Positions 254 through 37,873 of a stretch of DNA of 46,027 nucleotides are shown piece after piece. Both the position numbers and the translations under genes were made by a program. The notes under the pieces are model-generated. The model ran no database searches. It saw nothing but the letters and a program-made list of their open reading frames with translations, and was not told where the DNA came from. The stretch spans positions 1 to 46,027 of the IMG/VR virus record IMGVR_UViG_3300022223_000006. The stretch is one strand, 5' to 3'. This DNA is from a virus. Positions within the stretch are counted from its first letter, which is position 1; each line of letters begins with the position of its first letter.

Positions 254-1911
254 CCCATCAATGTCGTCGGATAGCCTGCCTGAAGGTCTTTATCATCGAA
301 AGAATAATCTATATCATCCAAGGCAATGCTTGCATCTATTTCATCGAGAATGAGGTCTGCACTAAGTTGCGAATAGCCTAAAACGTGAATTGGAAGCTCA
401 TAAGTCGAAAAGCAGTTTTCCTCGTAATTGATAATCAATGCGCTATCCGGTTTGTCCGCTGCAATCGAAGCATAAGAAATCCACGCCTGTTTCATTTCTT
501 CAAGGACTAATCCATAGCAATATCCAATCGCCGCCTGCGTCCATTCAAGCATAAAATCCGGTATTTTCTCATCCACATTGTATGCCTTGCGCCTATCGAA
601 TCCGACAATTTGCGTAGGGCCAACGGCCATAAGTTCATCGCTAAAAGATATGACCGACATAGTTGCATAGCATCCTTCCGTGCTTGCAACTTGCTCCCAT
701 TTGAACGGTTCTGTTGGGTCGTTTGTATAAGCAAAAATCCAGATAGTCCGCTCAAACCATACATAAAGCTCATCCCCGATAAAGTCTGCAGATATAATCC
801 AGTCCTCGGTTGGCGCATCTTTATATGAAGCGGCTTTCCAAATTGCGGGATTATTTATCTCACACCATCTTGCCCTTCGATTATGCGCACCATCCGTTTC
901 GTTTGTCCTGAAAAGAATAATACGATTATGATAAATAAAGATTAGAAGACAGGTATTCATATCATTATCAGGCCCGCCTTCCACAGCCAAATCTATTTGA
1001 AAAGGAACAGGTGTTAGAATACTTCCGGCGCCGTATCTTTGTATCTGGTCTATATAGTTTGTGAAATAGCCAACATCAAGCCAGTTTTGAAGCCAGAAAA
1101 AATTATTATCCTCACCTGTAAATTCGTTCTCTGTTTGCGTACCATCGGCATCACCGTAAATCTCAGCAGGTGTTCCTTGGTCTCGCAAATTTTCACCATC
1201 AAGAAAAGTACCAACAACTGTCGCATTCTTAAAAATAATCCAGCCATCGCCTGTTCCGAGAGGACAAGAGCCGTGGTCAACTATTACCGATTCAACCGTA
1301 CCATAAGCGCCGTTCGTAGCTCCTTCGCAGACATCGTTAGCAACTGGCAGATGATTTTGTGATGCGCCTGGCTTGAAATGGATTTTAAGTCGTGTTACAT
1401 CCTCAAAAGCGTGGCTTGTAGTATTGTATTTATTCACACGCTTGGTATCCATTGCCAAAAGCGTTTCTACATCTCCCTGATAATAGTTGTAAATCCCCAT
1501 TACAGCATTGCCAGGCACACTACTAACAATTCCAGTTGCATCATCAGCAACCCAAGTGGCTACAATCTTGAAAGTTGTTGCTGCCTTTTCTGAAATTACA
1601 AAAGTGCCGTTATAACTGGTCGTTCCGGTTTGAACGACTGTAGCGTCATTAGAAAGACCGTGTGCACTCGATGTTGTTACCGTAACCTTTCCACTTCCTG
1701 CATCTGCAAAATGTGTAATCACCGAGGCAGTTGTAGTCTCGGTTTTAACCATTTTCCCAAACTCTGTATAGCCTTTTCTCTTTTCGAGTACGCCGTGGTA
1801 AATATGCCCGTTACGCAGCTTCTTGAAGGCATCAGCGGGAATTAACCACGGCTCGCGCGCCGTAATTTGCCCCGATTTCAAATCATAAATTGGAAAAGAT
1901 TGAAATGGCAT
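1..1911 (-). CDS. Tail nozzle-like (beta-propeller) structural protein, N-terminal 637 residues
   Basis: The gene starts at 1911 and runs off the left edge. Across the circular join it continues to a stop at 45640, giving a protein of about 681 residues. It lies last in the head-to-tail series after the connectors and fibres. The sequence is beta-rich with short recurring blades such as NRIILFRTNET followed by RRARWCEINNPAIW. That pattern (a strand, then an Arg-rich 'RW...NP..W' turn) is typical of the propeller-like nozzle or stabilisation proteins of podoviruses (T7 gp12, P22 gp10 types). By analogy it would seal the tail below the connector. The family assignment is inferred from pattern and position; a receptor-binding propeller is the main alternative. 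Confidence 0.6.
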   Translation of the reverse strand, partial: MPFQSFPIYDLKSGQITAREPWLIPADAFKKLRNGHIYHGVLEKRKGYTEFGKMVKTETTTASVITHFADAGSGKVTVTTSSAHGLSNDATVVQTGTTSYNGTFVISEKAATTFKIVATWVADDATGIVSSVPGNAVMGIYNYYQGDVETLLAMDTKRVNKYNTTSHAFEDVTRLKIHFKPGASQNHLPVANDVCEGATNGAYGTVESVIVDHGSCPLGTGDGWIIFKNATVVGTFLDGENLRDQGTPAEIYGDADGTQTENEFTGEDNNFFWLQNWLDVGYFTNYIDQIQRYGAGSILTPVPFQIDLAVEGGPDNDMNTCLLIFIYHNRIILFRTNETDGAHNRRARWCEINNPAIWKAASYKDAPTEDWIISADFIGDELYVWFERTIWIFAYTNDPTEPFKWEQVASTEGCYATMSVISFSDELMAVGPTQIVGFDRRKAYNVDEKIPDFMLEWTQAAIGYCYGLVLEEMKQAWISYASIAADKPDSALIINYEENCFSTYELPIHVLGYSQLSADLILDEIDASIALDDIDYSFDDKDLQAGYPTTLMGCRTGYIYKLNDGGSDDGADISFETESGQLNPFVKEGKQACLGWIDFLVDKDELCTFDVDFYLNDESLSYQTKTITCSETGTNRD

Positions 1912-13472: not shown

Positions 13473-14405
13473 TTAACTTTTGGTTGACTTCAGGTTAATC
13501 AAGAACAAGTCCTGAATTATCCGCCAGCCAGACCACATTTTCCACGAAGCCGAGCCTCTTTGACGCAACTTATCGTCTCCGCTTCCTGGCGGGTCAACCC
13601 AGTTTTGCAGGGAGCCGCTCGATAGTTTTATCGCGGCATAAGCCTCTTTGCCGAAAATCAAGTTGCTATAAACACTGCTTGCCACAGGCGCCTGCGTTGA
13701 TTGAATCCAGCGAACTTCACCGACCGAACACCATTCGTTCTCATCAATGAAATTCTGCTGTGGATATTGTTGCGTTCCGATAGCCCCGCTTACCTTCATC
13801 AAATCTTCCCTTAGAAGATAATGAAATATCGCGGCATAAGCAGGACGCAAGGGCGCAGTGCCTGTGCCTGGCGATGCCTTGACATAACCGGTAATATGCT
13901 CCGCCAAATTGCCGTAAAGAGTCGTTGCAACCGTATCAATATCGGTTCTATTGAGAAGTGTTGCAGTACCAGTACCATGTGAGCAGGTAATTACGGAAGC
14001 CGTTGCGTTCATAGTATCGCGGCAAAGTTGGTCTCTGGTATTACGTATCTGGTCGGCCTGCATCTCAGCCCGCTTCGCCATTGCCATTCCATCCGTTGTC
14101 AACTCGACAACATCGGTAATCATTACCCAGGAGCCGAATTGGTCAACAGTTGCCAGTATGTCCACTTTGGACAATTTCTCGCCTTGCGGAGTAATTCCCT
14201 CGGCAAGTTTTGTTGTTGCAGCGGCAAGCCGGTTATAACGCCTGGCTTTCCAGGTCGTGCTGCTATTGGAGGGAAGGGTATATTCTTGCGCCCACTTTTC
14301 GTAGATGTATTTCGGAAATGGGGTGCTCAAAGCTGTTTTGTGAAAAAAAAGAGGCACGCCAGCATCAATCTGTGCTGTCGTGGTCATATTGTAAGTAGTT
14401 CCCAT
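13473..14405 (-). CDS. Major capsid protein, N4-gp56 family
   Basis: 310 residues. The core reads W-K-A-R-R-Y-N-R-L-A-A-A-T-T-K-L-A-E-G-I-T-P-Q-G-E-K-L, then VDILATVDQFGSWVMITDVV and 'RDQLCRDTMNATASVI'. This is the conserved backbone of N4-gp56-type major capsid proteins ('RR...LP.AT..L.EG.TP.G..L', 'Q.G....I.DV..L', 'RD.LN'). Its length is somewhat short for the family (about 300-400). It is expressed just after the scaffold gene, 16 bases away, and the intrinsic terminator lies upstream of both. The fold is HK97-like. Confidence 0.9.
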   Translation of the reverse strand: MGTTYNMTTTAQIDAGVPLFFHKTALSTPFPKYIYEKWAQEYTLPSNSSTTWKARRYNRLAAATTKLAEGITPQGEKLSKVDILATVDQFGSWVMITDVVELTTDGMAMAKRAEMQADQIRNTRDQLCRDTMNATASVITCSHGTGTATLLNRTDIDTVATTLYGNLAEHITGYVKASPGTGTAPLRPAYAAIFHYLLREDLMKVSGAIGTQQYPQQNFIDENEWCSVGEVRWIQSTQAPVASSVYSNLIFGKEAYAAIKLSSGSLQNWVDPPGSGDDKLRQRGSASWKMWSGWRIIQDLFLINLKSTKS

Positions 14406-14421
14406 AATGTAATTCCTTTCT

Positions 14422-15180
14422 TTATAATTTGGCTAAATCGACCGCACCGGACTTCAAATCATCTGCAAATCTGTTGAAATCTTCCGGCTTATCAAGCTCC
14501 ATCATCTTATCCAACAACGGAGAGCCGCTTGAACCGGCAGTTCCACCGCCTGCACCGAGGGCGCTTATGGATTGTGGTGTTTGTCTATTCTTGAGAAGCT
14601 CCTGAATTGCCGAATTTGTTTTCTCATTGTCCTGTTGTGTGGTCTTTATCTTGTTTTGTTGTTCCAGATAAGTTGAAGTTGTCTTAGCAAGACGATAAGC
14701 CGTAGCCCCCGCAAGAGCCGGATTAGTCTTGTATAGCTCCTGAAGATGAGCGAATACTGTCGGGTCAGACTTAACGATTTCCGGCAAATGCTCCGCAATG
14801 ACCGCTTGAAAATCCGTATGCTGCTGCTGTACTGCAAATTGGCCGGCCACATTATTGATATGACCCAAAACTCTATTCAAAGCCATCTCAAGTTGCTTCC
14901 GGTCAACAACCGTATCATCTTCAGCAAAAATACCATCCAAAATGTTCGGTTGTTTAGCTTCCGCCTTCGCTTGCGGCATATTAGCCCGCATTAGCTCCAT
15001 CTGTTCTTGAAACGTCTTCAGCATTGCATCTTTGGCCTTGCTCTCGGCAAGAACAGCATCCAAACGTTCTTTGGGAATCATTTCCGTTTGCTTGGCTTTT
15101 TCGGCGGCAGCGGCTAACTCTTCGTCAATTATTGCCTGACTTTCGGCATCCAACGTATCTGTTTCTTTTGGTTCTGGCAT
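14422..15180 (-). CDS. Scaffolding protein
   Basis: 252 residues from the ATG at 15180, which has AAAGGA about ten bases upstream. A longer frame reaching 15324 would read through the terminator hairpin and is rejected. The protein is acidic and helical (DEELAAAAEKAKQTEMIPKE) with a long coiled-coil region, a Gln/Ala-rich centre, a Gly-rich linker (GAGGGTAGSSGS) and a short C-terminal helix ending LKSGAVDLAKL. Position directly before the capsid, charge and helix content fit a scaffold that leaves during maturation. No protease was seen nearby. Confidence 0.75.
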   Translation of the reverse strand: MPEPKETDTLDAESQAIIDEELAAAAEKAKQTEMIPKERLDAVLAESKAKDAMLKTFQEQMELMRANMPQAKAEAKQPNILDGIFAEDDTVVDRKQLEMALNRVLGHINNVAGQFAVQQQHTDFQAVIAEHLPEIVKSDPTVFAHLQELYKTNPALAGATAYRLAKTTSTYLEQQNKIKTTQQDNEKTNSAIQELLKNRQTPQSISALGAGGGTAGSSGSPLLDKMMELDKPEDFNRFADDLKSGAVDLAKL

Positions 15181-15280: not shown

Positions 15281-15321
15281 AAAAAACCCCTGAAAGCAGT
15301 TTTTAAGCTGCTCGCAGGGGT
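15281..15321 (-). terminator. Intrinsic terminator before scaffold/capsid
   Basis: On the minus strand the arms ACCCCTG (15315-15321) and CAGGGGT (15286-15292), reinforced by AGCAG/CTGCT inside, are followed by TTTTTT (15281-15286). It lies within the late operon, upstream of the two most needed genes. It must therefore be partial, be bypassed by antitermination, or be followed by another promoter. Confidence 0.8.
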
Positions 15322-15398
15322 CATTTGTTGATTTACCCTAATTACTTATTCAGTTATCAAACTATCCACGACGTTTGATGTCTTATTTTTTCTTCAAA

Positions 15399-15580: not shown

Positions 15581-15820
15581 CTATTTGTTAGGTTCAAAAT
15601 ATTCGTCCGGTTGAATTATAACCGAATATTCTACATTACAATTAACCTTTTCCCGTTCAGGATGCAAGTTAAATTTTACATTTCCGCACATATCAGGGAA
15701 TATTTCCTTGACTAACTTGCAAGCCTGTATCAACTTTTTTTGCTGGCCGCAAATATCAGGAAATATTTCTTTAACTAATTTGCAAGCCTGTATTGACTTT
15801 TTTCGCTGGGATTCTGTCAT
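15581..15820 (-). CDS. Small protein with a 21-residue tandem duplication
   Basis: 79 residues. IQACKLVKEIFPDICG and IQACKLVKEIFPDMCG are successive copies 21 residues (63 bp) apart, so a recent in-frame duplication created the present gene. Each copy holds two Cys in a C-x11-C spacing. The C-terminal third is beta-rich and acidic. Its ATG shares one base with the preceding stop (TAATG). No family recognised. Confidence 0.65.
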   Translation of the reverse strand: MTESQRKKSIQACKLVKEIFPDICGQQKKLIQACKLVKEIFPDMCGNVKFNLHPEREKVNCNVEYSVIIQPDEYFEPNK

Positions 15821-16413: not shown

Positions 16414-16858
16414 TTCCTAACGCTTCTTTTACCGCCGCATCTGCTTTTTCTTTTCTCCAATTGGCCTTAATGCCTTTTAACCTTTTTTGAATATCAAGAA
16501 TATCCATTAAAGTTACATTCCCCGCACATTTCGTACGCAAAATTTCCAGGTCAGATAACGAAAGGAATTGTTCTATAGTTTTAACTGGCTTTCCTTCGCG
16601 TTCACGAATACGCAAAAATCTTCTGACGCGACTGTTAAAATCATCAATGGGCAAGGGAATACTATCAATTTGAGCCTCAAATTCTCCACACCACTCATCT
16701 TCAAAAGTATTTACTAAGCCGCCTTTTTCATTTTCAGGATTTTCATCTATTGTTCGATATACAGGAGGAAATCTTCTGCAAAATCCAAATTCTCCACAAA
16801 GCGGTCTATGATAGCTATGTTGTTCCCACCATTTACAATCTTTGCAAGTTTTTTTCAT
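16406..16858 (-). CDS. Cys-rich protein next to portal
   Basis: 150 residues. The N-terminus has CKDCKWWEQHSYHRPLCGEF and GFCRRFPPVY, four cysteines plus histidines in a metal-binding arrangement like those of the tiny early proteins of this phage (compare 29051-29269). The C-terminal half is helical and charged. The ATG at 16858 overlaps the portal stop by four bases. A structural Zn site is inferred. Confidence 0.55.
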   Translation of the reverse strand: MKKTCKDCKWWEQHSYHRPLCGEFGFCRRFPPVYRTIDENPENEKGGLVNTFEDEWCGEFEAQIDSIPLPIDDFNSRVRRFLRIREREGKPVKTIEQFLSLSDLEILRTKCAGNVTLMDILDIQKRLKGIKANWRKEKADAAVKEALGID

Positions 16859-18819
16859 CGTTTCACTATCGCCTCTCTTCTAAGCTTCCTGTCAGAAATC
16901 TCCTCGAACTGAACGAGTCTGTCAAGAACAGCGTTTATCTTCTCAAGCTGCATAGCTTGTAAATCTTTAGCAGCGTGAATACGCTCAACGGTTGTCTTGG
17001 CTTCATCAAGAGCAGCCGAAGCATCTGCATCTCTGGCAAAAGCAGCCTGCTGCTGTGCCTTTGTCATAGAAACAGCCACCTCCGCCTCCGCCCCCTTGAG
17101 TTGCGTCTGCAAAGCAATCTGTTGTAATTGTTGTTGCTGCGCCTGCTGCTGGGCGATGGCTTGCTTAAATCTCTGTGATAATTGTACTGGGGCAAGCTCT
17201 ATAATCAAATTATCCGGTATGGTAATTCCCATTTGCCTTAATTGCAGAACCTCAGAATAAGCCATTTGACGCTGCGTATCGGTCAATATGCCCTCCTGAA
17301 GCATACAATCATATTTTTCAAAATCAGGCTCATAGAAGCCAGGCGCAATGGGTTCTTTTGCCATTCTCTGAACCTTTTGCGGTGAAAATACCGCCTGGTG
17401 CATCTTGACTAACTTTCGGCCAGCTTGCCTTCGAGCATTGCGGTAATTATCGAAAGGCTCCTGAAATATTGTAAGCGAAGCCCCCTGCCGCATTGCCCAT
17501 AAGCCCATAGGTATATCCTTTTCGCCTGCTCCAAACGTCTCCTCGCTTATACCCATTAAAGACATCACCTTGTTAGCAACAACCTGCTCAAGACCCATAA
17601 AACCCATTGGAATATCTTTGGCTATAATCTCCTTAACTTCTTCAAGTGTATGGCCTTTTTTGATAGGTATAGGAACTCCCGTTCCTGCCATATAAAGAGA
17701 TTCTGGGTTTGCTACTGCATCCTCTACAAATTTCCAACCAGTTGTTATCTGCCGTTCGGCCATATCTAATATCTGCATCATTCGCCTGTTCTCGGCTCTC
17801 TGCGGGTCTCGCGTTGAACGAAGTAAAGACGCAATCTTGTATCTTGCATCATCCTCTTCAGGCTGCCAATCACCGGCAATAAGCACAAAAGGATAATCAC
17901 CTATATCGTAAGGGTCGTCATAAGTCTCCAATAATATCCCATTGTAAAATACCGCCATTTCAACACTGTCAATCTCGCCGTCCATTAACGAAAACTGCGG
18001 TTGGTTCATAATGGCAAACAATGTTTGTCTTTTCTCAAATTCATTCATCCAAGGCCGAAGTATGAACTTCAAGGGCGTAAAATTCATATTCGTCTTATTA
18101 AGAAGCAGTTTTTCCTTCTTTGTCGTCCGCCGCCAAAACTGCTCGAATCTTCGCAAATCGTCTTTGAAAGGCGTTATCTTCTTTGTCATAAAAGGCCATT
18201 TTGACAGACCATAATCACCCACGCCCGTACCCTTGATGAATGCCTTGTCTATCTCCTTGGCTAAATCAGGCTTAACCAGTCGCTTGGCCTGTTCCTTCGT
18301 TATCGCATCGCCCAATATTACATACTGGCAATCGGACAAATCGAGATTCGTGAAATTCGGGTCTAAAAGAAACTTGTTGTACGGACTCCGGCCAAAGTCT
18401 ATGTCGCCTTCGTGGTTAGGCCAAAAATTAACTATATTCCAGCCGCACATTAAACTTCCAAACTTAAAGGCATCTGAAAAGGTCTGATAAGCCTTAGATG
18501 CGCACCGATTCATTGTATGCATCAGAAGTTTAGTATGCTGAAAACAGGCGGCATCCCTGTCACCTTCTTCCGGCCCCACAATCATCGAAAGTCTTGTCTT
18601 GCGCTCGTAGCCTGTCAAGAGCCTGACAATCTTCTTTTGCAAATTAAAAATGTACGGCTGACGTTTTTGATTACGAAGGATTTGCTTTTCTTCCGGCGAA
18701 AGCTGGTCTCCCTCGACAAAACGCAAGTCCTTCTTCATCTCCGCCAATGCAGGCCGCCAAGCAGACTCAGCTTGTCTATAACACTCCTCAAAATCGGTTG
18801 TTATGTCTCGGTCAGGCAT
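16855..18819 (-). CDS. Portal protein, P22-like
   Basis: 654 residues. The start region (FEECYRQAESAWRPALAEMK, then LRFVEGDQLSPEEKQILRNQ, RQPYIFNLQKKIVRLLTGYE) has the 'W......N..F..G.QW....R..R...P.L..N.I...V....G..R' logic of P22-type portals. Later segments include the crown-side IGDYPFVLIAGDWQPEEDDA and the helical 'ENRRMMQILDMAERQI'. It ends with a Gln-rich helix (QAIAQQQAQQQQLQQIALQT), a barrel-like C-terminus. It forms the dodecameric DNA channel and terminase dock. Confidence 0.9.
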   Translation of the reverse strand: MPDRDITTDFEECYRQAESAWRPALAEMKKDLRFVEGDQLSPEEKQILRNQKRQPYIFNLQKKIVRLLTGYERKTRLSMIVGPEEGDRDAACFQHTKLLMHTMNRCASKAYQTFSDAFKFGSLMCGWNIVNFWPNHEGDIDFGRSPYNKFLLDPNFTNLDLSDCQYVILGDAITKEQAKRLVKPDLAKEIDKAFIKGTGVGDYGLSKWPFMTKKITPFKDDLRRFEQFWRRTTKKEKLLLNKTNMNFTPLKFILRPWMNEFEKRQTLFAIMNQPQFSLMDGEIDSVEMAVFYNGILLETYDDPYDIGDYPFVLIAGDWQPEEDDARYKIASLLRSTRDPQRAENRRMMQILDMAERQITTGWKFVEDAVANPESLYMAGTGVPIPIKKGHTLEEVKEIIAKDIPMGFMGLEQVVANKVMSLMGISEETFGAGEKDIPMGLWAMRQGASLTIFQEPFDNYRNARRQAGRKLVKMHQAVFSPQKVQRMAKEPIAPGFYEPDFEKYDCMLQEGILTDTQRQMAYSEVLQLRQMGITIPDNLIIELAPVQLSQRFKQAIAQQQAQQQQLQQIALQTQLKGAEAEVAVSMTKAQQQAAFARDADASAALDEAKTTVERIHAAKDLQAMQLEKINAVLDRLVQFEEISDRKLRREAIVKR

Positions 18820-19079
18820 ATCGACAATCGTAAAAATTCACAACCATATCCATCATTACATACGGGCAAATCATATCTTTCTTTATCTGAGTCAAATCTA
18901 ATCCAATGAGCAAATGATAAAGTTGGATGAAATAATCCTTCGATTTTATGAGCAGTTGACAATCGTTCAAGTAAAAGTGTTTGAGCGCATTCTTTATCCC
19001 AAGGTTCAGTACTGTTGCGTATCATAGATTCTATTATACTTCTATCAATAATATCGTTATCTTCGTATATCGTTTTCAT
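18801..19079 (-). CDS. Small protein between terminase and portal
   Basis: 92 residues, unrecognised. It begins at 19079 with an ATG overlapping the large-terminase stop (ATGA) and itself overlaps the portal start by 19 bases. This tight packing indicates translational coupling in the packaging module. The sequence is acidic and helical in the first half and has three Cys near the C-terminus. Confidence 0.5.
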   Translation of the reverse strand: MKTIYEDNDIIDRSIIESMIRNSTEPWDKECAQTLLLERLSTAHKIEGLFHPTLSFAHWIRFDSDKERYDLPVCNDGYGCEFLRLSICLTET

Positions 19080-20509
19080 ATCTGCACCGGCATTAAATAT
19101 TTTTTGTTAAGCTCGGCTATCGTTTCTTTTATGCCGACCGTTACTTTGTCGCTATATTCTATCATCGGCCAAGCCCATAAACCAATAACGTAAGTATCCG
19201 CCTCATCTGGGCTACACCCTAAACGCTTCTTAATCTCATCCTTGCCCTCAATCAACAGTTTTTCACCCCGATATTGATAAGTCGGAGCGCATAGCTGATT
19301 AAACAATGTAACATCCGCATAGTCATTTGCCAAGCATAAAATCACATTAGAATTAGGCATTACACCATTAGCCAAGCACTTCGCAGCTAAATCCCAAGCC
19401 TCTGCTCGACAGTTATAATAATGTTTTGGGTCGCTTGCAGCTCCGGCTGGATTGTATTGAATTGTATTTACGCCAAGTTGCGTAAGCTCATCGAGCACGC
19501 CTGCGCCAAGGTCTGCACCTATTGACTCCACCACACAGGTTATATCACCATTAGCCTTTGACATCCTTGCCATTCGATTACTTATCTCTGTTGTCCGACA
19601 GTAAGGTAATATCACTTTCTCGGCTATATCGCCGTTTTCCATAAGCATTATAACACATTTATCATCGCCAAATCTGGCAGGGTCACAGACCAAAAACCGC
19701 TTGACATAACCATATTTTGTTCGCTGTTTTGCGGCTTGCAACCATTTATATTTTATTTGCTGATTAGCTCCCTCAAAGGCTTCCCAAGAGCCATTAAGAT
19801 AAGCTTCGATAAGCTCCGGCTTGTGCCTGTAAGCTTCTCTAATAGTCTGATAGTATTCTGGAGGAGTGTAAGGATTGTCTTTTGGTAAGGCTTGTATAAA
19901 CTTTTGATTTGTCTGTGGATTCTGAATAAAGTCTTCTTTGAGCCAGCCCTGCGCAGGATTAGCCGTAAAAAGCATTTTGCCTTGAACTTTCTGTCCACCA
20001 ATAATCAAACGCCATCTTGTAGCAGTACGCAAAGCAGCAACATCTTCTCTATCCGTTTCTTCAGCCTGGTCAATGAAAACACGGGCAAAAGCAGCACCTT
20101 GAAACTTCTCCAAATCTTCTCGGCTATCAAGTCCCCCCGTTCGTATCGTTACACGACCACCAATTGTAAAGACGGGCGGGTCATCTTTGGCAGTAAACAT
20201 CTGCGCCGGTATAACCTGATACCAAGTATCGAGCGTTGTATCTTTGAAATGCTTGGCTATCTTTCTGCCCATCCAACCAACACAAACAGGCTTTACAGGA
20301 GCTTTATCAGGCCAAAACTTTCTTGCAAGCTCATAACATTCGAGATACATCCAAAGGCAACCGAATACAGATTTTCCGCCAAATTTAGCCCCCCCATATA
20401 ATAGCTCTTCGATTACTGGGTCCTGCAATGCGGTCCAAGCCAACCATTGCCGCCAAGTAAACTCTGGCTCTAAGCCAGCCACAAGATTTTGCTTATTTTG
20501 GTCTGACAT
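19076..20509 (-). CDS. terL: Terminase large subunit
   Basis: 477 residues from the ATG at 20509. The ATPase domain shows Walker A GGAKFGGKS (about 39-47) and Walker B ARVFIDQAEE (about 142-151), followed by coupling motif-like 'MLFTANPAQGW'. The C-terminal nuclease begins FLVCDPARFGDDKCVI with the first acidic residue in place, then CVVESIGADLGAGVLDEL and the final 'SPDEADTYVIGLWAW'. It cuts and pumps DNA through the portal. The preceding 61-residue gene ends 16 bases inside it. Canonical length for the family. Confidence 0.92.
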   Translation of the reverse strand: MSDQNKQNLVAGLEPEFTWRQWLAWTALQDPVIEELLYGGAKFGGKSVFGCLWMYLECYELARKFWPDKAPVKPVCVGWMGRKIAKHFKDTTLDTWYQVIPAQMFTAKDDPPVFTIGGRVTIRTGGLDSREDLEKFQGAAFARVFIDQAEETDREDVAALRTATRWRLIIGGQKVQGKMLFTANPAQGWLKEDFIQNPQTNQKFIQALPKDNPYTPPEYYQTIREAYRHKPELIEAYLNGSWEAFEGANQQIKYKWLQAAKQRTKYGYVKRFLVCDPARFGDDKCVIMLMENGDIAEKVILPYCRTTEISNRMARMSKANGDITCVVESIGADLGAGVLDELTQLGVNTIQYNPAGAASDPKHYYNCRAEAWDLAAKCLANGVMPNSNVILCLANDYADVTLFNQLCAPTYQYRGEKLLIEGKDEIKKRLGCSPDEADTYVIGLWAWPMIEYSDKVTVGIKETIAELNKKYLMPVQI

Positions 20510-20678
20510 AACCAATCATCATAGGATTATAAGATTGAGGTTTAGGTTTTGGCTGTTTGGGTATTACATCAGAAGGTATTACATCCTGAGGTATTACATT
20601 AGATTCCCTTTGCTTCGCTCTATATCTCTGAACCGCTAATTGAACCGCTTCTCTCTGCTTCTGCTTATCTTTATACAT
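20493..20678 (-). CDS. Small basic protein between terminase subunits
   Basis: 61 residues: an Arg/Lys/Gln helix (KQREAVQLAVQRYRAKQRES) followed by a Pro-Lys tail. The 'RYRAKQR' helix is often seen beside phage terminase genes as a short DNA-binding-like peptide. The ATG shares a base with the previous stop at 20678. Role unknown, perhaps packaging. Confidence 0.55.
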   Translation of the reverse strand: MYKDKQKQREAVQLAVQRYRAKQRESNVIPQDVIPSDVIPKQPKPKPQSYNPMMIGYVRPK

Positions 20679-21028
20679 TACTTCCCAGGTTCCGGTTGAT
20701 GCTTTATTATAATCGGTGGCATTGTACCTACTTCAACCTGCTGCTTATCCGTTTGTCCTAAGTGCTGCTTGCCCCACCAAATAAGCATTGTAGGATTCTG
20801 ATTGTTAAATTGCTGCTCCAACTTAATTATTTTACCCTCAGCTCTTTTTTGAACACATTTCTTGGCATAATGTCTTTTAAATGTTTTTACATCAATTCCT
20901 AAACATTCGGCAATAGTAGTATCTCTACACTGATGCAAAGCCATTTCCTCAATAGAGTTTAATATTTCACTCTCATTTGGAATTACTTTAGGTTTTCTAC
21001 CAAGTCTTGCTTTTTGTTTTTTGACCAT
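20678..21028 (-). CDS. terS: Probable terminase small subunit
   Basis: 116 residues. It contains a helix-turn-helix-like region, LNSIEEMALHQCRDTTIAEC, then LGIDVKTFKRHYAKKC, like the DNA-recognition half of small terminases. A later segment, PTMLIWWGKQHLGQTDKQQV, matches the common end 'p.m.if.lkn..pw.d'-style oligomerisation/C-tail of TerS proteins. It heads the packaging cluster directly before TerL. Start at 21028 with a weak ribosome site. Confidence 0.7.
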   Translation of the reverse strand: MVKKQKARLGRKPKVIPNESEILNSIEEMALHQCRDTTIAECLGIDVKTFKRHYAKKCVQKRAEGKIIKLEQQFNNQNPTMLIWWGKQHLGQTDKQQVEVGTMPPIIIKHQPEPGK

Positions 21029-21579: not shown

Positions 21580-21687
21580 CTTTCATTCATAAATCCATTG
21601 TCTCGCAATTTTGCAGAGCGCAACAAATAAGGCCAGAAGCTACTGGCATAGATAAGCAATTCGATAATTCACATCTTAACATATAAA

Positions 21688-21778
21688 CACAAATACGAAT
21701 AAAATGTGAAGTCATCAACAACTAATTTGCGCATTTTCCACATTTTGTTGAAAATATTTTTAGGAAGGGATTTTGGGC
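21688..21778 (-). repeat. Intergenic regulatory-like repeat, copy A
   Basis: About 90 bases, closely matching 22392-22479 (shared core cacaaatacgaataaaa, actaatt, attttgttgaaaatattttt and attttggg). It lies between the late terminator and the first late gene. On the minus strand it offers TTGATG then TATTTG 17 bases later, a weak promoter look. It also contains the inverted repeat ttttccacattttgttgaaaa (imperfect). The 21580-21936 stretch otherwise holds the terminator and promoter annotated here and no convincing gene. Confidence 0.6.
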
Positions 21779-21820: not shown

Positions 21821-21851
21821 AAAAAAAAGGGGGCTCATTAAATAAGGCCCC
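21821..21851 (-). terminator. Strong intrinsic terminator (tR'-like)
   Basis: On the minus strand GGGGC at the 5' arm (21847-21851 region) pairs with GCCCC (about 21829-21834) across an AU-rich loop, followed by eight T at 21821-21828. It lies about 45-70 nt downstream of the promoter at 21901-21928 and upstream of all late genes. Confidence 0.8.
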
Positions 21852-21893
21852 AAATATATTTATGCCCTTTATCAAAGTGTGGGCTATTCATTC
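21821..21893 (-). ncRNA. Predicted ~73-nt terminated transcript before the late genes
   Basis: Start predicted from the -10 box at 21901-21906 and end at the terminator U-tract. It contains a first hairpin (GCCC-ACA-CTTT-GAT-AAAG-GGC) and then the terminator hairpin, with no ORF. The organisation copies the lambda 6S RNA made from pR' and stopped at tR'. Antitermination would turn it into the late leader. Inference from sequence only. Confidence 0.45.
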
Positions 21894-21900
21894 TATTAAA

Positions 21901-21928
21901 ATTCTACGGTATATTTCGGCAAAGTCAA
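21901..21928 (-). promoter_or_regulatory. Sigma70-like promoter, candidate late promoter
   Basis: Minus strand: TTGACT (21923-21928), 16-base spacer, TAGAAT (21901-21906). Five of six matches to each consensus hexamer. Only eight bases separate it from the stop of the upstream gene. Confidence 0.7.
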
Positions 21929-21936
21929 GTTATTTT

Positions 21937-22107
21937 TTAAGAATTTGCTGGCCTCAACGATTGGTTCACAATCCGTTGTTCAGTTGGACTCAGGCTTCGT
22001 TTCATTGGGCCGACTAATGTCTGAGATATGATTTTCATTTCCTTCGGGCTGAGAGTCTTGTTCTGTTGTCGTGGGTATTCCAATATTTGTGCTTGAATCT
22101 TTCTCAT
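21937..22107 (-). CDS. Small repeat protein (56 aa) just upstream of the late promoter
   Basis: Starts MRKIQAQILEYPRQQ with AAGGTGG nine bases upstream of the ATG at 22107. The rest holds two imperfect repeats: LSPKEMKIISQTLVGPMKR and LSPTEQRIVNQSLRP. It is basic and helical. In lambdoid phages the antiterminator Q gene occupies this very place, but Q families are larger and no similarity is visible, so that role is only a positional suggestion. Confidence 0.55.
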   Translation of the reverse strand: MRKIQAQILEYPRQQNKTLSPKEMKIISQTLVGPMKRSLSPTEQRIVNQSLRPANS

Positions 22108-22146
22108 TATTATCCACCTTGCTTAGGTTTGTTTTAGGCTATTTCT

Positions 22147-22335
22147 CTAAAATTCAAGGATAAGCCGTGCTGGAGCCTCTCCAGTCCACTCTGCGATAAT
22201 TTCTTTATCTTCTAAACAAATCCAATTGCCATTTTTGGTATAAGAAACACAGGGTATACCTTCGTCAACCTTTGCGAAATGGTCTTCTAAACAAATGTTA
22301 TAATAATCACAGGTTTTACACTTTACTTTTATCAT
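22147..22335 (-). CDS. Small Cys-rich protein
   Basis: 62 residues from the ATG at 22335: MIKVKCKTCDYYNICLEDHF, with two further Cys (C28, C39). CxxC-x5-C is a probable zinc-binding opening, similar to other microproteins in this block. Longer starts (22383, 22422) run into the repeat at 22392-22479 and have no better ribosome site. Confidence 0.5.
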   Translation of the reverse strand: MIKVKCKTCDYYNICLEDHFAKVDEGIPCVSYTKNGNWICLEDKEIIAEWTGEAPARLILEF

Positions 22336-22391
22336 AATCTCGGCTGGGTTCCAAGACCAAAAGGAATAAAACCAATATTTCATATACCAAT

Positions 22392-22479
22392 CACAAATAC
22401 GAATAAAAGGTGAAGACGTCAAAGACTAATTCTGCAATTTGCAGATTTTGTTGAAAATATTTTTAGGGATGATTTTGGG
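22392..22479 (-). repeat. Intergenic regulatory-like repeat, copy B
   Basis: Second copy of the 21688-21778 element at roughly 80% identity. On the minus strand it has TTGACG then TATTTG after 17 bases. It also holds the perfect palindrome ctgcaaatTTGCAG-type core (tctgcaatttgcaga, 22431-22445), operator-like and absent from copy A. It lies upstream of the gene at 22147-22335 and overlaps the 3' end of the gene at 22463-22654. Confidence 0.6.
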
Positions 22480-22654: not shown

Positions 22655-22759
22655 ATACCACTTCCTTTCTAAAAATACTGATTTGAGGCTAATTCTATAA
22701 AATTCAAGGCTCTGGCTTGCCCCGGGTTCGATGAACTCAAAGGCGCGCTACCAATATGA
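22655..22759. other. Intergenic 105 bases with a partial duplication remnant
   Basis: Contains gctaattctataaaattcaagg, a near copy of the end of the gene at 22147 (aaattcaagg... near 22148-22160). It suggests a decayed duplicate of that 3' end. A tRNA-like GGGTTCGATGAAC motif is present but does not fold into a tRNA. No gene supported. Confidence 0.35.
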
Positions 22760-23092: not shown

Positions 23093-23359
23093 TTACAAAA
23101 TTAAGGCTTTGTCGTTTACAACCGAAATCAATACTTTACTTGCTGTTTCACCACAGACTCCTTCTTTATGGATTTGTTGGTGAATCCGATAAAGTCTATC
23201 GGCGTTCATTTTGGTTTTACTAACCCATTCCATTACAGCTTGCACACGCAGACATAGTTTTTCAGCTAAACTAACCGCAAGCAATTCGATAAAATCATCA
23301 CCTTTTGATTCGGTTGTAAGTTTAATTTTGTTGTGGTATTTACGATAATAGGTATTCAT
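23093..23359 (-). CDS. Helical protein (88 aa), unknown
   Basis: A basic beta start (MNTYYRKYHNKIKLTTESKG) then helices (DFIELLAVSLAEKLCLRVQA). GAGGTGATAAA precedes the ATG at 23359. It follows the Cys-rich gene by nine bases. No family recognised. Confidence 0.55.
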   Translation of the reverse strand: MNTYYRKYHNKIKLTTESKGDDFIELLAVSLAEKLCLRVQAVMEWVSKTKMNADRLYRIHQQIHKEGVCGETASKVLISVVNDKALIL

Positions 23360-28296: not shown

Positions 28297-28719
28297 TTAT
28301 ATCTTTTCGCAAAGCTCTTTATACATTTGTTTATACATCAAGCCGATACCAATTATTTTCTTCTTATATGACTGGTTTTTGTCGAGCCAGCGAAGCTCAT
28401 CAATGACTTCCTGACCATATTTTGCTTTCATAAATAGTTCATATATTTCAGGTCTTCCTCCTTCAAATCCATTACAGGGTTTGCATTGCGTATTTATGTT
28501 TCTTTCGTCAAAATAAACACCGCTCATTCCCCCTGAACCACGCCTTACAAAATGACCGGCATCAGCGTTTTTATCCCAAATGATTATTCTCTCACAAGTG
28601 CAGCATTGAACATAACCAAAGGGTGATTCGGGATTGTCTTTTTGATATTGAATGGCGTCTCGGAGTCTTATGTATTTTGAACACCATTCCCAAGCTTCTT
28701 TTTTAGCGGTTTTTGCCAT
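28297..28719 (-). CDS. ninG: NinG/Rap-like recombination nuclease
   Basis: 140 residues. The core VQCCTCERIIIWDKNADAGH followed by FVRRGSGG, YFDERNINTQCKPCNGFEGG and the Y/L-rich tail (YELFMKAKYGQEVIDELRWL) is the lambda NinG pattern: two CxxC zinc knuckles flanking a His/Asn HNH-like centre. In lambda this protein resolves recombination intermediates. It fits beside RecE- and RecT-like genes. Somewhat shorter than lambda's about 200 residues, lacking the N-terminal extension. Confidence 0.8.
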   Translation of the reverse strand: MAKTAKKEAWEWCSKYIRLRDAIQYQKDNPESPFGYVQCCTCERIIIWDKNADAGHFVRRGSGGMSGVYFDERNINTQCKPCNGFEGGRPEIYELFMKAKYGQEVIDELRWLDKNQSYKKKIIGIGLMYKQMYKELCEKI

Positions 28720-28947
28720 TTAAGCATCCTTGCCCCATTTAATCCAACCTTCGATGGCCAGAACAAAAAAGATAATGTCCCTTACAAATAAACTCCAAAC
28801 ATACATTTCGGCGTGAATGGCGGCAGACAAAGCATTAGATATAATCCACAGAATAAAGCAGAACCGCATCCGCCTGTTATTGAGAATCACGCCTACTACA
28901 GCCAATATCGTGGTGAGTATTCCTATGATTTCTATTATTGGTAGCAT
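28720..28947 (-). CDS. Small inner-membrane protein
   Basis: 75 residues from the ATG at 28947 with GAAAGGAAGG directly before it; the longer frame to 28995 would be inside the tRNA-like leader. Three hydrophobic helices (IIEIIGILTTILAVVGVILN, FCFILWIISNALSAAIHA, DIIFFVLAIEGWIKW). The W-I-S-N...W..R pattern recalls PnuC-like or YgjV-like membrane microproteins in phages. Transport role not proven. Confidence 0.6.
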   Translation of the reverse strand: MLPIIEIIGILTTILAVVGVILNNRRMRFCFILWIISNALSAAIHAEMYVWSLFVRDIIFFVLAIEGWIKWGKDA

Positions 28948-28961
28948 CCTTCCTTTCAAAT

Positions 28962-29047
28962 ATGCTGGCGGGCAGTTGGTGGGAATCGAATCCACCCTCC
29001 GGCTTAATGCCGGTGCTCTACCTTCGAGCTTCCACCGCCGCCAGCAT
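28962..29047 (-). ncRNA. tRNA-like cloverleaf leader, copy 1
   Basis: 86 nt. The outer 10-bp stem ATGCTGGCGG/CCGCCAGCAT encloses three hairpins: GCTC-GAAGGTA-GAGC (D-arm-like), CCGGC-ATTAA-GCCGG (anticodon-arm-like, loop only five bases), and GTGG...TTCGATT...CCAC (T-arm-like). The acceptor does not end normally and the total is shorter than a tRNA, so a functional tRNA is unlikely. The element ends just before the ribosome site of the membrane-protein gene. Confidence 0.6.
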
Positions 29048-29344: not shown

Positions 29345-30103
29345 TTAATCTGTAAAAAACATCATTTGGTCATCTTTTGCTCTTTTACTGCTGTCTCTGC
29401 TTAACCACCATTGCCATAATTCTTCTGGCGTATTAAAAGAACTTATTTTAGAATTGAAAGTTGATTTTATTGATTTTTCCCACATTCTTGCTATCTGTGG
29501 CCATCGCTCAATGTCCCGTTGAGTATCTCGACTCATTGGGCATAATACACAACCAAGCCTTTTGAATCCTTCATCATACAAAGAGCAATATGATATATTT
29601 TGGCTTCTTAAATAATTCCAGACATCTGTTGTTGACCAATCGATGATAGGATTCAAAAATTGTTTTTCTTTGTGCCGATAGCAAGTCTCAATCATTCGGC
29701 GTTTTTTTCTTTGAGTTGATTCTTGCCAGCGAACGCCAGTAACAACCATTGCATCAATCCCGCCGCGTTCTTTCAAATGCTCACAACAAAAACGCAAATA
29801 TCTCGTAGGAGGCCCGTGTTTTTTTCTGATTAAAGTCCACATAGTGAACTTAGATTTTTCAAAAATAACATCTGATTGATTTCGGATATGCCTAATTATT
29901 TCCGGTGGGTCACAGGTCGTAACATTATAGTGGGCGGTATATTTGACGCCGCTTCTCCTGACTAAGTCTAAAATAACATCACTATCTTTGCCACCTGAAT
30001 AAGCTACATAATATCCTTCCGGTCTTTTGGTCAAAGCATTTGGCTCAAATATTTTGAGACGCTCTATTGCAATATCATCAAGTTTTCCAAATAGATGATT
30101 CAT
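29345..30103 (-). CDS. PAPS-reductase-like PP-loop protein
   Basis: 252 residues. The PP-loop YSGGKDSDVILDLVRRSG (about 35-52) binds ATP. FCCEHLKERGG and GCVLCPMSRDTQRD supply two Cys pairs in the place where phosphoadenosine-phosphosulfate-reductase-like phage proteins hold an Fe-S cluster. 'WSTTDVWNYLRSQNISYCSL' is the substrate-side helix of the family. True sulfate reduction is unlikely here. Such phage proteins may modify DNA or RNA (relatives of DndC) but no Dnd partners are present. It sits behind a tRNA-like leader. Confidence 0.8.
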   Translation of the reverse strand: MNHLFGKLDDIAIERLKIFEPNALTKRPEGYYVAYSGGKDSDVILDLVRRSGVKYTAHYNVTTCDPPEIIRHIRNQSDVIFEKSKFTMWTLIRKKHGPPTRYLRFCCEHLKERGGIDAMVVTGVRWQESTQRKKRRMIETCYRHKEKQFLNPIIDWSTTDVWNYLRSQNISYCSLYDEGFKRLGCVLCPMSRDTQRDIERWPQIARMWEKSIKSTFNSKISSFNTPEELWQWWLSRDSSKRAKDDQMMFFTD

Positions 30104-35339: not shown

Positions 35340-36065
35340 TTTTTGTCTTTTCTAAAGATTTATGATTCCTGGCGGCAAAGGCACGAACAAGCCTGCGTGA
35401 AAATTTAAGTTCTAACCCAATTCCCGTTTCATCGTTTTTTGCCGCCGTCTAATATTCCGTCCCTATCTTGGCCTTCAGGATATTTCAAGACACAGCATCT
35501 GGATAATAAACTTTGTCAGATAACTGGTTTTTTTCTGCCGTTTATGTACCAAGCGCAGAATAACTAAATTCTTTCTCTATTTATCAAATTTTCAAAGGTA
35601 CTGGTGGCGGAATGTTATGTTGCCTGTCCCCTGGGGACTCCCGCTGCGACCGCCAACTCAACCGCCGCCAACACCGAACGCTCAATAAAGAAATTGGGGC
35701 CAAGTCTTCCCTGACCCCAATTCTTAGGAGGAGGGGGGGCTTAATAATGGGCGGCTTTGCTCACTCCGGCGCACTCTCACATGAGTTTGGAGGCCCAGCC
35801 GCCCTGCGCGTAAGTTTCTAAAGATGAGCCTGCCGATTGATTTATTGAGAAAGGATTATCTGCTGTTTTCTACAGACGAAAGGAGAGAATCGACAGGCTC
35901 TCGGAGGCTTGAAAAAGGTGGATAGCGGGCAGGATTTTTACCTGCTTGATTGCCTTTTGTGCGTAGCCCCAATTGGTCTGACCTGCAATCTTACGCCATC
36001 AGCGTTTCAACACACGCCGCCGCCATCCATAAATTCTATGAATTTGTAAAAGAGCAAAATATTCT
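35340..36065 (-). ncRNA. Gene-free 0.7-kb block of nested inverted repeats
   Basis: No credible ORF on either strand. Long pairings (plus-strand arms): 35371-35379/35438-35446 (ggcggcaaa); 35626-35631/35633-35638 (gtcccc/ggggac); 35692-35699/35715-35722 (aattgggg); 35749-35756/35797-35804 (gggcggct); 35826-35838/35888-35900 (13 bp, one U-G on minus); 35920-35928/36020-36028 (one G-U on minus). The wobble pattern points to minus-strand RNA. Could be one large structured RNA or a row of separate elements. Confidence 0.5.
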
Positions 36066-36215
36066 TTAAGGGGTCTCCATATCCTCATTATAAGGATTAT
36101 ATTCATCATCATCTTTTATATGTAGAATACCATCATCATCTTCGTAAAGGTCATCTTGGCCGACCCCTACCGATTCTGCCGTAAAACCATATTTGCAACC
36201 GCAAAAATCACACAT
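36066..36215 (-). CDS. Acidic Cys microprotein (49 aa)
   Basis: MCDFCGCKYGFTAESVGVGQ then a strongly Asp/Glu-rich tail ending NEDMETP. Three Cys in the first seven residues may bind metal. The high negative charge could be DNA-mimic-like, but this is speculation. Preceded by GAGATAAAAAT. Confidence 0.5.
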   Translation of the reverse strand: MCDFCGCKYGFTAESVGVGQDDLYEDDDGILHIKDDDEYNPYNEDMETP

Positions 36216-36233
36216 ATTTTTATCTCTAATTTC

Positions 36234-36300
36234 TTTAGCCTCGGCCAGTGGCGTCCCTGCCCCTGGGTCATCCTTAACCTACTACTGGCCGAAAGCTAAA
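36234..36300 (-). ncRNA. Long-stem hairpin leader
   Basis: Arms TTTAGC + CGGCCAGT pair with ACTGGCCG + GCTAAA (36284-36300 with 36234-36249 on the plus map), 14 bp with a small internal loop. The apex is about 34 nt with a CCC/GGG-rich element. It ends about 20 bases before the ATG at 36215. Confidence 0.55.
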
Positions 36301-36619: not shown

Positions 36620-37429
36620 ATGTTTTACGCCCTGTTACATCACAGGGCAAGGAAGCCAATCAAAGAAGCCATCGAAGAATGGCTAATCGATATAAATAAC
36701 CTCGCTTACAATACACAAAGGTATTACAAAAAAGCCATTTTCAACTTCACTATTGATTTGCCAAAGAAATATATCTCACAAATAACATCGGCAGATTTGC
36801 TCAAACACTTAAATAAATTTCGCTGGGAAAACCATAAAGCATCGACTACTAACACACAACTTATGGCCTTAAAATCGTTTTTTCACTACCTTTCGGACAA
36901 TTATGGTATTGAAAATATTGCTCTGCCAATAAAAAAATACAAAGAAGAACTGCCATATCAGCCCTTTATCAACCACGAACAATACCTTAAAATCCTTGAA
37001 TCTACCACTCAAAGAGAATCTGATATAATCAAGATGTTGGCTAATACCGGCTTGCGATGTTCAGAACTTGCCGGACTCAAACCGGAAAATATCAACCCTA
37101 ACTTATCAAGTATCACCATTCAAGGCAAAGGCGGCAAGGTTCGGACTATACCTTGCAACCAAACGGTTCGGGAGATTCTATCCCGCTCTATTAACTTTCC
37201 AAAGAATCGTAAAAGTATATATAACCATTGCAAAATGGCGGCAAAGAGAATAGGTTTGGAATTATCACCGCATCAACTTCGCCGGTTTTTCGCCACCGAA
37301 CTTCTACACAATGGAATTTCCCTTCTAATAATTTCTCGACTTCTTGGGCACTCGTCTGTTCGAACCACCGAGTTGTATCTTCATTTGGATTCATCTTATT
37401 TACAAGGTGTTACTGATGTTCTGGATTGA
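36620..37429 (+). CDS. int: Tyrosine recombinase/integrase
   Basis: 269 residues. A SAM-like core-binding domain (IEEWLIDINNLAYNTQRYYK, then VMALK-type helix LMALKSFFHYLSDN) precedes the catalytic domain. Active-site residues are complete: R146 (ANTGLRCSELAGLK), K173 (GGKVRTIP), H218 and R221 (SPHQLRRFFAT), H244 (RLLGHSSVRTT) and Y253 (ELYLH). Length is typical of a small XerC/D-like phage integrase. No weak ribosome site stands out (AGAAAGATTACTTAATATCTT). No excisionase or att site was recognised. It is the only sizeable plus-strand gene. Confidence 0.9.
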   Translation: MFYALLHHRARKPIKEAIEEWLIDINNLAYNTQRYYKKAIFNFTIDLPKKYISQITSADLLKHLNKFRWENHKASTTNTQLMALKSFFHYLSDNYGIENIALPIKKYKEELPYQPFINHEQYLKILESTTQRESDIIKMLANTGLRCSELAGLKPENINPNLSSITIQGKGGKVRTIPCNQTVREILSRSINFPKNRKSIYNHCKMAAKRIGLELSPHQLRRFFATELLHNGISLLIISRLLGHSSVRTTELYLHLDSSYLQGVTDVLD

Positions 37430-37825: not shown

Positions 37826-37857
37826 GAAAAAATGGCCGGCGTGTGGATTCCGGCCAC
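37826..37857 (-). terminator. End-of-late-operon terminator
   Basis: Minus strand: TGGCCGG (37850-37856) pairs with CCGGCCA (37833-37839) over a 10-base loop, followed by six T (37827-37832). It directly follows the last lysis gene. Confidence 0.85.
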
Positions 37858-37873
37858 TCGGAGGAAATATGTG

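Follow-up and report, generated by a model that had tools for sequence, protein, structure and literature searches.

A predicted late promoter with an intrinsic terminator close behind it, and a further terminator ahead of the capsid genes, in a lambdoid-type virus genome

The window analysed here is the entire IMG/VR virus record IMGVR_UViG_3300022223_000006 (46,027 bases), and its genome arrangement, as read from the sequence, is that of a lambdoid, temperate phage. The minus strand carries a series of genes running from exonuclease VIII, RecT, NinG and a DNA methyltransferase through a block of small genes to the late genes, which follow in the order TerS, TerL, portal, scaffold, capsid and tail-type genes (Table 1). 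The scaffold-like protein was without a family match in the PHROG-type annotation. Provided that the genome is circular or circularly permuted, as the gene order suggests, the late unit would wrap to ejection-type and holin-like genes and end at the terminator following the latter. A GenBank search for near-identical phages found none, and single-sequence scans with the scaffold, capsid and 56-aa proteins gave no relatives. The early region also carries PAPS-reductase-like and PnuC-like genes (29345-30103 and 28720-28995, minus strand).

Table 1. Positions of the genes and sequence features discussed in the text
Feature	Position	Strand	Remarks
Integrase	36620-37429	+	
NinG/Rap	28297..28719	-	phrog_5034, PF05766; marks lambdoid early-late boundary region
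88-aa protein	23093..23359	-	weak YdaS/Cro-type helix-turn-helix similarity; PF15943 E=0.009, below curated cut-off
D-element copy 2	22389..22479	-	upstream of T1
56-aa ORF	21937..22107	-	doubled LSPxE motif, SD-preceded; candidate regulator by position only
Predicted late promoter, sigma-70-like, pR'-like	21901..21928	-	TTGACT-16-TAGAAT; score 9.84
Second TAGAAT	21890..21895	-	at about -1 to +5; may be a -10-like pause element
T1, intrinsic terminator, tR'-like	21821..21851	-	GC hairpin + T8
D-element copy 1	21685..21776	-	past T1, ahead of the first late ORF; alternative site of late control
Terminase small subunit (TerS)	20678..21028	-	phrog_309
Terminase large subunit (TerL)	19076..20515	-	phrog_2
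Portal protein	16855..18819	-	phrog_156
T2, strong intrinsic terminator	15281..15323	-	before scaffold and major capsid genes; dG -23.0, z -5.9
Scaffold-like protein	14422..15180	-	between T2 and capsid gene; first gene past T2
Major capsid protein	13473..14405	-	phrog_1357
Terminator closing late unit	37833..37860	-	3' of holin-like gene

A sigma-70-like promoter with an intrinsic terminator shortly after it stands upstream of the late operon, where an earlier note made from the DNA had described it. The promoter consists of TTGACT (21928-21923), a 16-nt spacer and TAGAAT (21906-21901), with an A-tract immediately upstream (21929-21946), and ranks eighth among all minus-strand sites and third among the intergenic ones. 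Promoter scores use E. coli values, which may not be those of the host; the choice is reasonable because the top three intergenic promoters all resemble TTGAC(A/T) with a TATAAT-like -10 element. The hairpin of the first terminator (T1), GGGGC...GCCCC from 21851, is followed by eight T at 21828-21821 (dG -10.2). It begins 43 nt downstream of the predicted start at about 21894, in agreement with the distance of about 45 nt given in the note, and the predicted RNA is about 74 nt long. The stretch from the start to T1 contains no ORF that has a ribosome site.

T1 has the highest T-tract score on the minus strand, and only T1 and the second terminator (T2) combine a T-tract score of 5 with -10 kcal/mol there. 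When pairs were defined as a promoter scoring at least 9.8 with a terminator of T score at least 5 and dG at most -10 within 130 nt, there was one pair on the minus strand and none in 100 dinucleotide shuffles. Given T1, the chance of an equally good promoter within 110 nt is about 2 % (8 sites per 46 kb). The intergenic stretch from T1 to the terminase genes holds no promoter comparable to 21928-21901; the best intergenic score was 5.2 between T1 and the first late ORF and 4.4 between T2 and the scaffold ATG, and the late genes are thus without a good intergenic sigma-70 promoter. The same had been claimed of the late genes as a whole, and it holds between genes, with one promoter-like site in coding sequence, inside TerS, scoring 8.65. 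The late promoter was shared by no close relative.

Q of lambdoid phages loads at a pause, which is brought about by a -10-like element within the initial transcribed region (PMC6606751). A second TAGAAT near the predicted start could be such an element, but comparable hexamers occur at about 8 % of the promoter-like sites in the window and the assignment is therefore suggestive only.

Several other repeats and control-like sites were observed. A weak third copy of the CCTTGAATTTTATAGAATTAGCC repeat (about 21880-21910, minus strand) covers the -10 region of the late promoter, the copies at 22682-22720 and 22132-22170 (minus strand) being 79 % identical to each other, and a TTTCATAATAAAGCCC-type repeat occurs in three copies (23560, 23999 and 24256) at the starts of small genes. 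The best promoter of the window (24575-24548, minus strand) is 74 % identical over 55 nt to positions 28-82 of relative L002, a stretch oriented away from TerS. The second-best, TTGACT-17-TATAAT, lies just past the end-of-late terminator in a second short promoter-terminator unit (37753-37566, minus strand) that also contains a 39-aa ORF with an SD sequence before it and a long-loop T6 hairpin (dG -27.2). The GC-rich region 35600-36300 (minus strand) has few ORFs and a strong hairpin-T site at 35724-35694 (dG -21.6).

A second terminator before the scaffold and capsid genes had also been proposed, as lying inside the late operon, and T2 is indeed present at 15323-15281. It probably sits in a gap of about 220 nt rather than inside a gene, since the scaffold start is more likely the SD-preceded ATG at 15180. 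The sequence supports a requirement for read-through of T2 in scaffold and capsid expression. Elsewhere in this part of the genome, a 63-nt tandem duplication (15684-15809) lies within a small ORF (15581-15820).

To place both terminators in a wider setting, 80 viral loci were collected from TerL-alignment searches (25-83 % identity). Terminators (T score at least 4.6, dG at most -12) were surveyed from TerL to 900 nt beyond the capsid start in the 21 loci with a mapped capsid gene, covering 122 kb. Seven strong terminators were found, six of them directly before a scaffold-like gene (the window, L007, L018, L022, L037 and L041) and 846-1102 nt from the capsid start, the L007 distance resting on an estimated start. 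This is an approximately 90-fold concentration in a 370-nt zone before scaffold and capsid; the binomial value of 6e-8 overstates the case because the zone was defined after the first cases had been seen. The six hairpins are unrelated in sequence and range from -23 to -29 kcal/mol, each with a long T run, which was itself a search criterion. L016 has a terminator at a similar distance, at the end of its contig. No good promoter was found 3' of any T2-type terminator in the relatives. T2 and the scaffold ATG are 22 nt apart in L018, so that the scaffold gene would be reached either by read-through or from a promoter overlying T2, where the best score was 5.0. The leaders past T2 showed no unusual conserved RNA structure (z +1.1 to -2.0). 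No description of a terminator upstream of scaffold genes was found in the open-licence literature, which is weak evidence of absence.

The layout before the terminase genes was more variable. In the closest relatives, L003, L002 and L013, the TerS region is immediately preceded by a sigma-70-like promoter that no terminator follows. Three more distant ones have a promoter, then a terminator 42-128 nt past the start, then the terminase genes. Among these, L071 has NinG and a 51-aa ORF overlapping the promoter, is without a pause-like hexamer and has its terminator 128 nt past the start; in L072 an ORF ends just before the -35 element and the terminator follows at 71 nt; and L076 has a TTGACA-16-TATAAT promoter with the terminator at 42 nt. 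The count of promoter-terminator pairs upstream of TerL was 6 in 124 kb across all loci. The opposite strand gave 4, late genes gave 3 (410 kb) and shuffled sequence gave 6 (620 kb), a modest enrichment. Two of the six, in L068 and L087, are not convincing, the L087 pair being a scan match only. The pairs in L068 and L055 were rejected as parallels, since minus-strand genes intervene in the former and a small ORF lies between promoter and terminator in the latter. L016 and L022 have a T2-type terminator and no recognized T1. The present analysis adds to the earlier observation the same layout in three divergent relatives and the T2 position in five other loci. T2 proved more general than T1, and of these additions the conserved terminator ahead of capsid is of the greatest interest.

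Neither of two tested Q families is represented in the window. Neither the window nor any of 12 related records matched PF06530 (Phage_antitermQ), whose control was over the cut-off in 1 of 14 genomes, or PF03589 (Antiterm), whose E. coli control was over the cut-off. PF06323 (Phage_antiter_Q) was also unmatched in the window, but its control was silent in all genomes. None of the 30 early and boundary proteins matched an antiterminator family, which bears out the earlier view that no recognizable Q is encoded here. That view had also pointed to a 56-residue repeat protein, unlike any Q family, in the position of Q. The ORF and its doubled LSPxE motif are present, its stop codon lies 9 nt before the -35 element of the late promoter, and it matches no family. 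With no homolog either, and a model of two short helices without a confident fold (pTM 0.27), the suggestion that it substitutes for Q gained no support, and nothing beyond its position points to it as a regulator. The only DNA-binding candidate detected near the late promoter is the 88-aa protein, and the structure models of both small proteins were too weak for a structure search. In L018, a sigma-factor-like protein (phrog_351, E 3.5e-7) is encoded just upstream of TerS (950-1507, plus strand). Given that a sigma-region-4-like fold is known from 21Q (PMC6606751) and a sigma-like helix-turn-helix from GafZ (PMC11150451), proteins of this kind would be reasonable antiterminator candidates in this group.

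There is precedent for proteins that act alike without sequence homology, namely lambda Q, 21Q (PMC6606751), AlpA (PMC7969949) and GafZ (PMC11150451). The window resembles the pR'/tR'-Q system of lambda and of phages 21, 82 and YA3 in having a late promoter, an immediate intrinsic terminator and the late operon downstream, with NinG and small genes upstream and a possible -10-like element near +1; in YA3 the terminator lies 224 nt past the late promoter (PMC7326022). It differs in that no Q homolog was found and in the additional terminator before scaffold and capsid. In the Caulobacter gene transfer agent (GTA) cluster, a strong terminator within a capsid-type gene cluster must likewise be bypassed, by GafZ, which is unrelated in sequence to lambda Q; that terminator, in contrast, consists of 150-bp repeats after the first gene (PMC11150451), and no protein resembling GafZ was noticed in the window. 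AlpA of Pseudomonas aeruginosa is an antiterminator that, once loaded at a promoter, enables polymerase to read past intrinsic terminators further along (PMC7969949), but no homolog was found among the Pfam and PHROG matches of the window's early proteins and the gene context differs. The put RNA of HK022 demonstrates that antitermination can be processive in the absence of any phage protein (PMC9378689); put, however, acts on early operons, and the window is without an Rfam match.

The anatomy of the promoter and T1, together with the lambdoid gene order, supports the earlier description of the site as lambda pR'/tR'-like, and we hold with moderate confidence that it also works like pR'/tR'. 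We consider it somewhat probable that late control here is processive, Q-like antitermination at promoter 21928-21901 by a putative phage factor. In favour of this are the uniqueness of the promoter-T1 pair on its strand, the lack of a comparable intergenic promoter past T1 or T2, the recurrence of each terminator position among relatives, the lambdoid gene order and the known precedents. Under this proposal, 21928-21901 would be the late promoter and would be used by the host RNA polymerase, which would normally halt at T1 and yield the RNA of about 74 nt. Late in infection, a phage factor, presumably a protein, would load onto polymerase at or near the promoter, perhaps while the enzyme is paused at the second TAGAAT, and the loaded polymerase would ignore intrinsic terminators. 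The modified polymerase would then pass T1 into the terminase and portal genes, and T2 into scaffold, capsid and the remaining late genes. Both terminators would be active, with read-through being regulated. Against antitermination stand the absence of PF06530 and PF03589, the lack of a terminator in the three closest relatives, the modest enrichment of the layout, the missing pause-like hexamer in L071, the occurrence of a T2-type terminator with no recognized T1 in L016 and L022, and the fact that T1 could equally mark where the operon of small genes upstream ends.

This last point leads to a reading that we regard as rather unlikely, in which T1 merely ends that operon, promoter 21928-21901 is incidental, and late transcripts begin further downstream, with D-element copy 1 as one candidate site, from a non-sigma-70 promoter dependent on a phage activator. 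The distance from the end of the last upstream ORF to T1 is 86 nt. A conserved direct repeat of about 93 nt, the D-element, is found in the gap before the first late ORF and has TTGAYG-17-TATTTG with A/T-rich sequence upstream; L003 and L002 carry TTGACG-17 promoters at the matching place, and L058 has a terminator and then a strong promoter. The element was rejected as an ordinary sigma-70 promoter on its score of 3.6-5.2, however, and it is not late-specific, since a second copy stands upstream of T1 before another small gene. The copies are 83-86 % identical, both lie in gaps before small ORFs, and no exact match was found in viral contigs. T2 is left unexplained by this reading, as it is if the promoter-terminator unit were a stand-alone gene for a regulatory small RNA of about 74 nt, separate from late expression. 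A promoter and terminator 70 nt apart are also the anatomy of a small RNA gene, and the RNA would form two hairpins; the lack of an Rfam match is still compatible with a new family. The fold is not unusual (z -1.2), though, and L071, L072 and L076 share the pre-terminase position although their RNA sequences are unrelated, making this very unlikely in our view.

The reading of T2 as a partial terminator, or as an mRNA-processing or stabilizing hairpin at the 5' end of the capsid mRNA, with no dedicated antitermination, is about as improbable. It would suit the position of T2 before the most highly needed genes, the long leaders past T2 in several relatives and the two loci with a T2-type terminator and no recognized T1. 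The strength of the hairpins and their long T runs (by which they were searched) argue against it, as do the leaders, which are not unusually structured, and a partial stop before capsid would reduce the most-needed protein. Least probable to us is T1 as an attenuator under translational control. A 17-codon ORF from about +4 (21891) has its stop codon in the T1 hairpin loop, where a ribosome would break the hairpin, and in L071 an SD-GTG ORF, its ribosome site being a good one, extends across the terminator. The mini-ORF of the window, however, is without a ribosome site, and ORFs of this kind often arise by chance; for L072, L076 and T2, no counterpart has been established.

Extended beyond the window, the antitermination reading becomes more tentative. 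It is possible, though doubtful, that a broad group of uncultured podovirus-like viruses uses processive antitermination by one or several antiterminators that are not related to known Q proteins, with the conserved terminator before scaffold and capsid as a second checkpoint. If so, this checkpoint would mean that capsid is made by modified polymerase alone. Few families of processive antiterminators are known, and what is common to them is the mechanism and not the sequence; new ones therefore cannot be found by homology. The recurrent promoter-terminator layout and the recurrent pre-capsid terminator offer a sequence-based route to phages that must encode new antiterminators, and both would also yield a short list of candidate genes for each phage.
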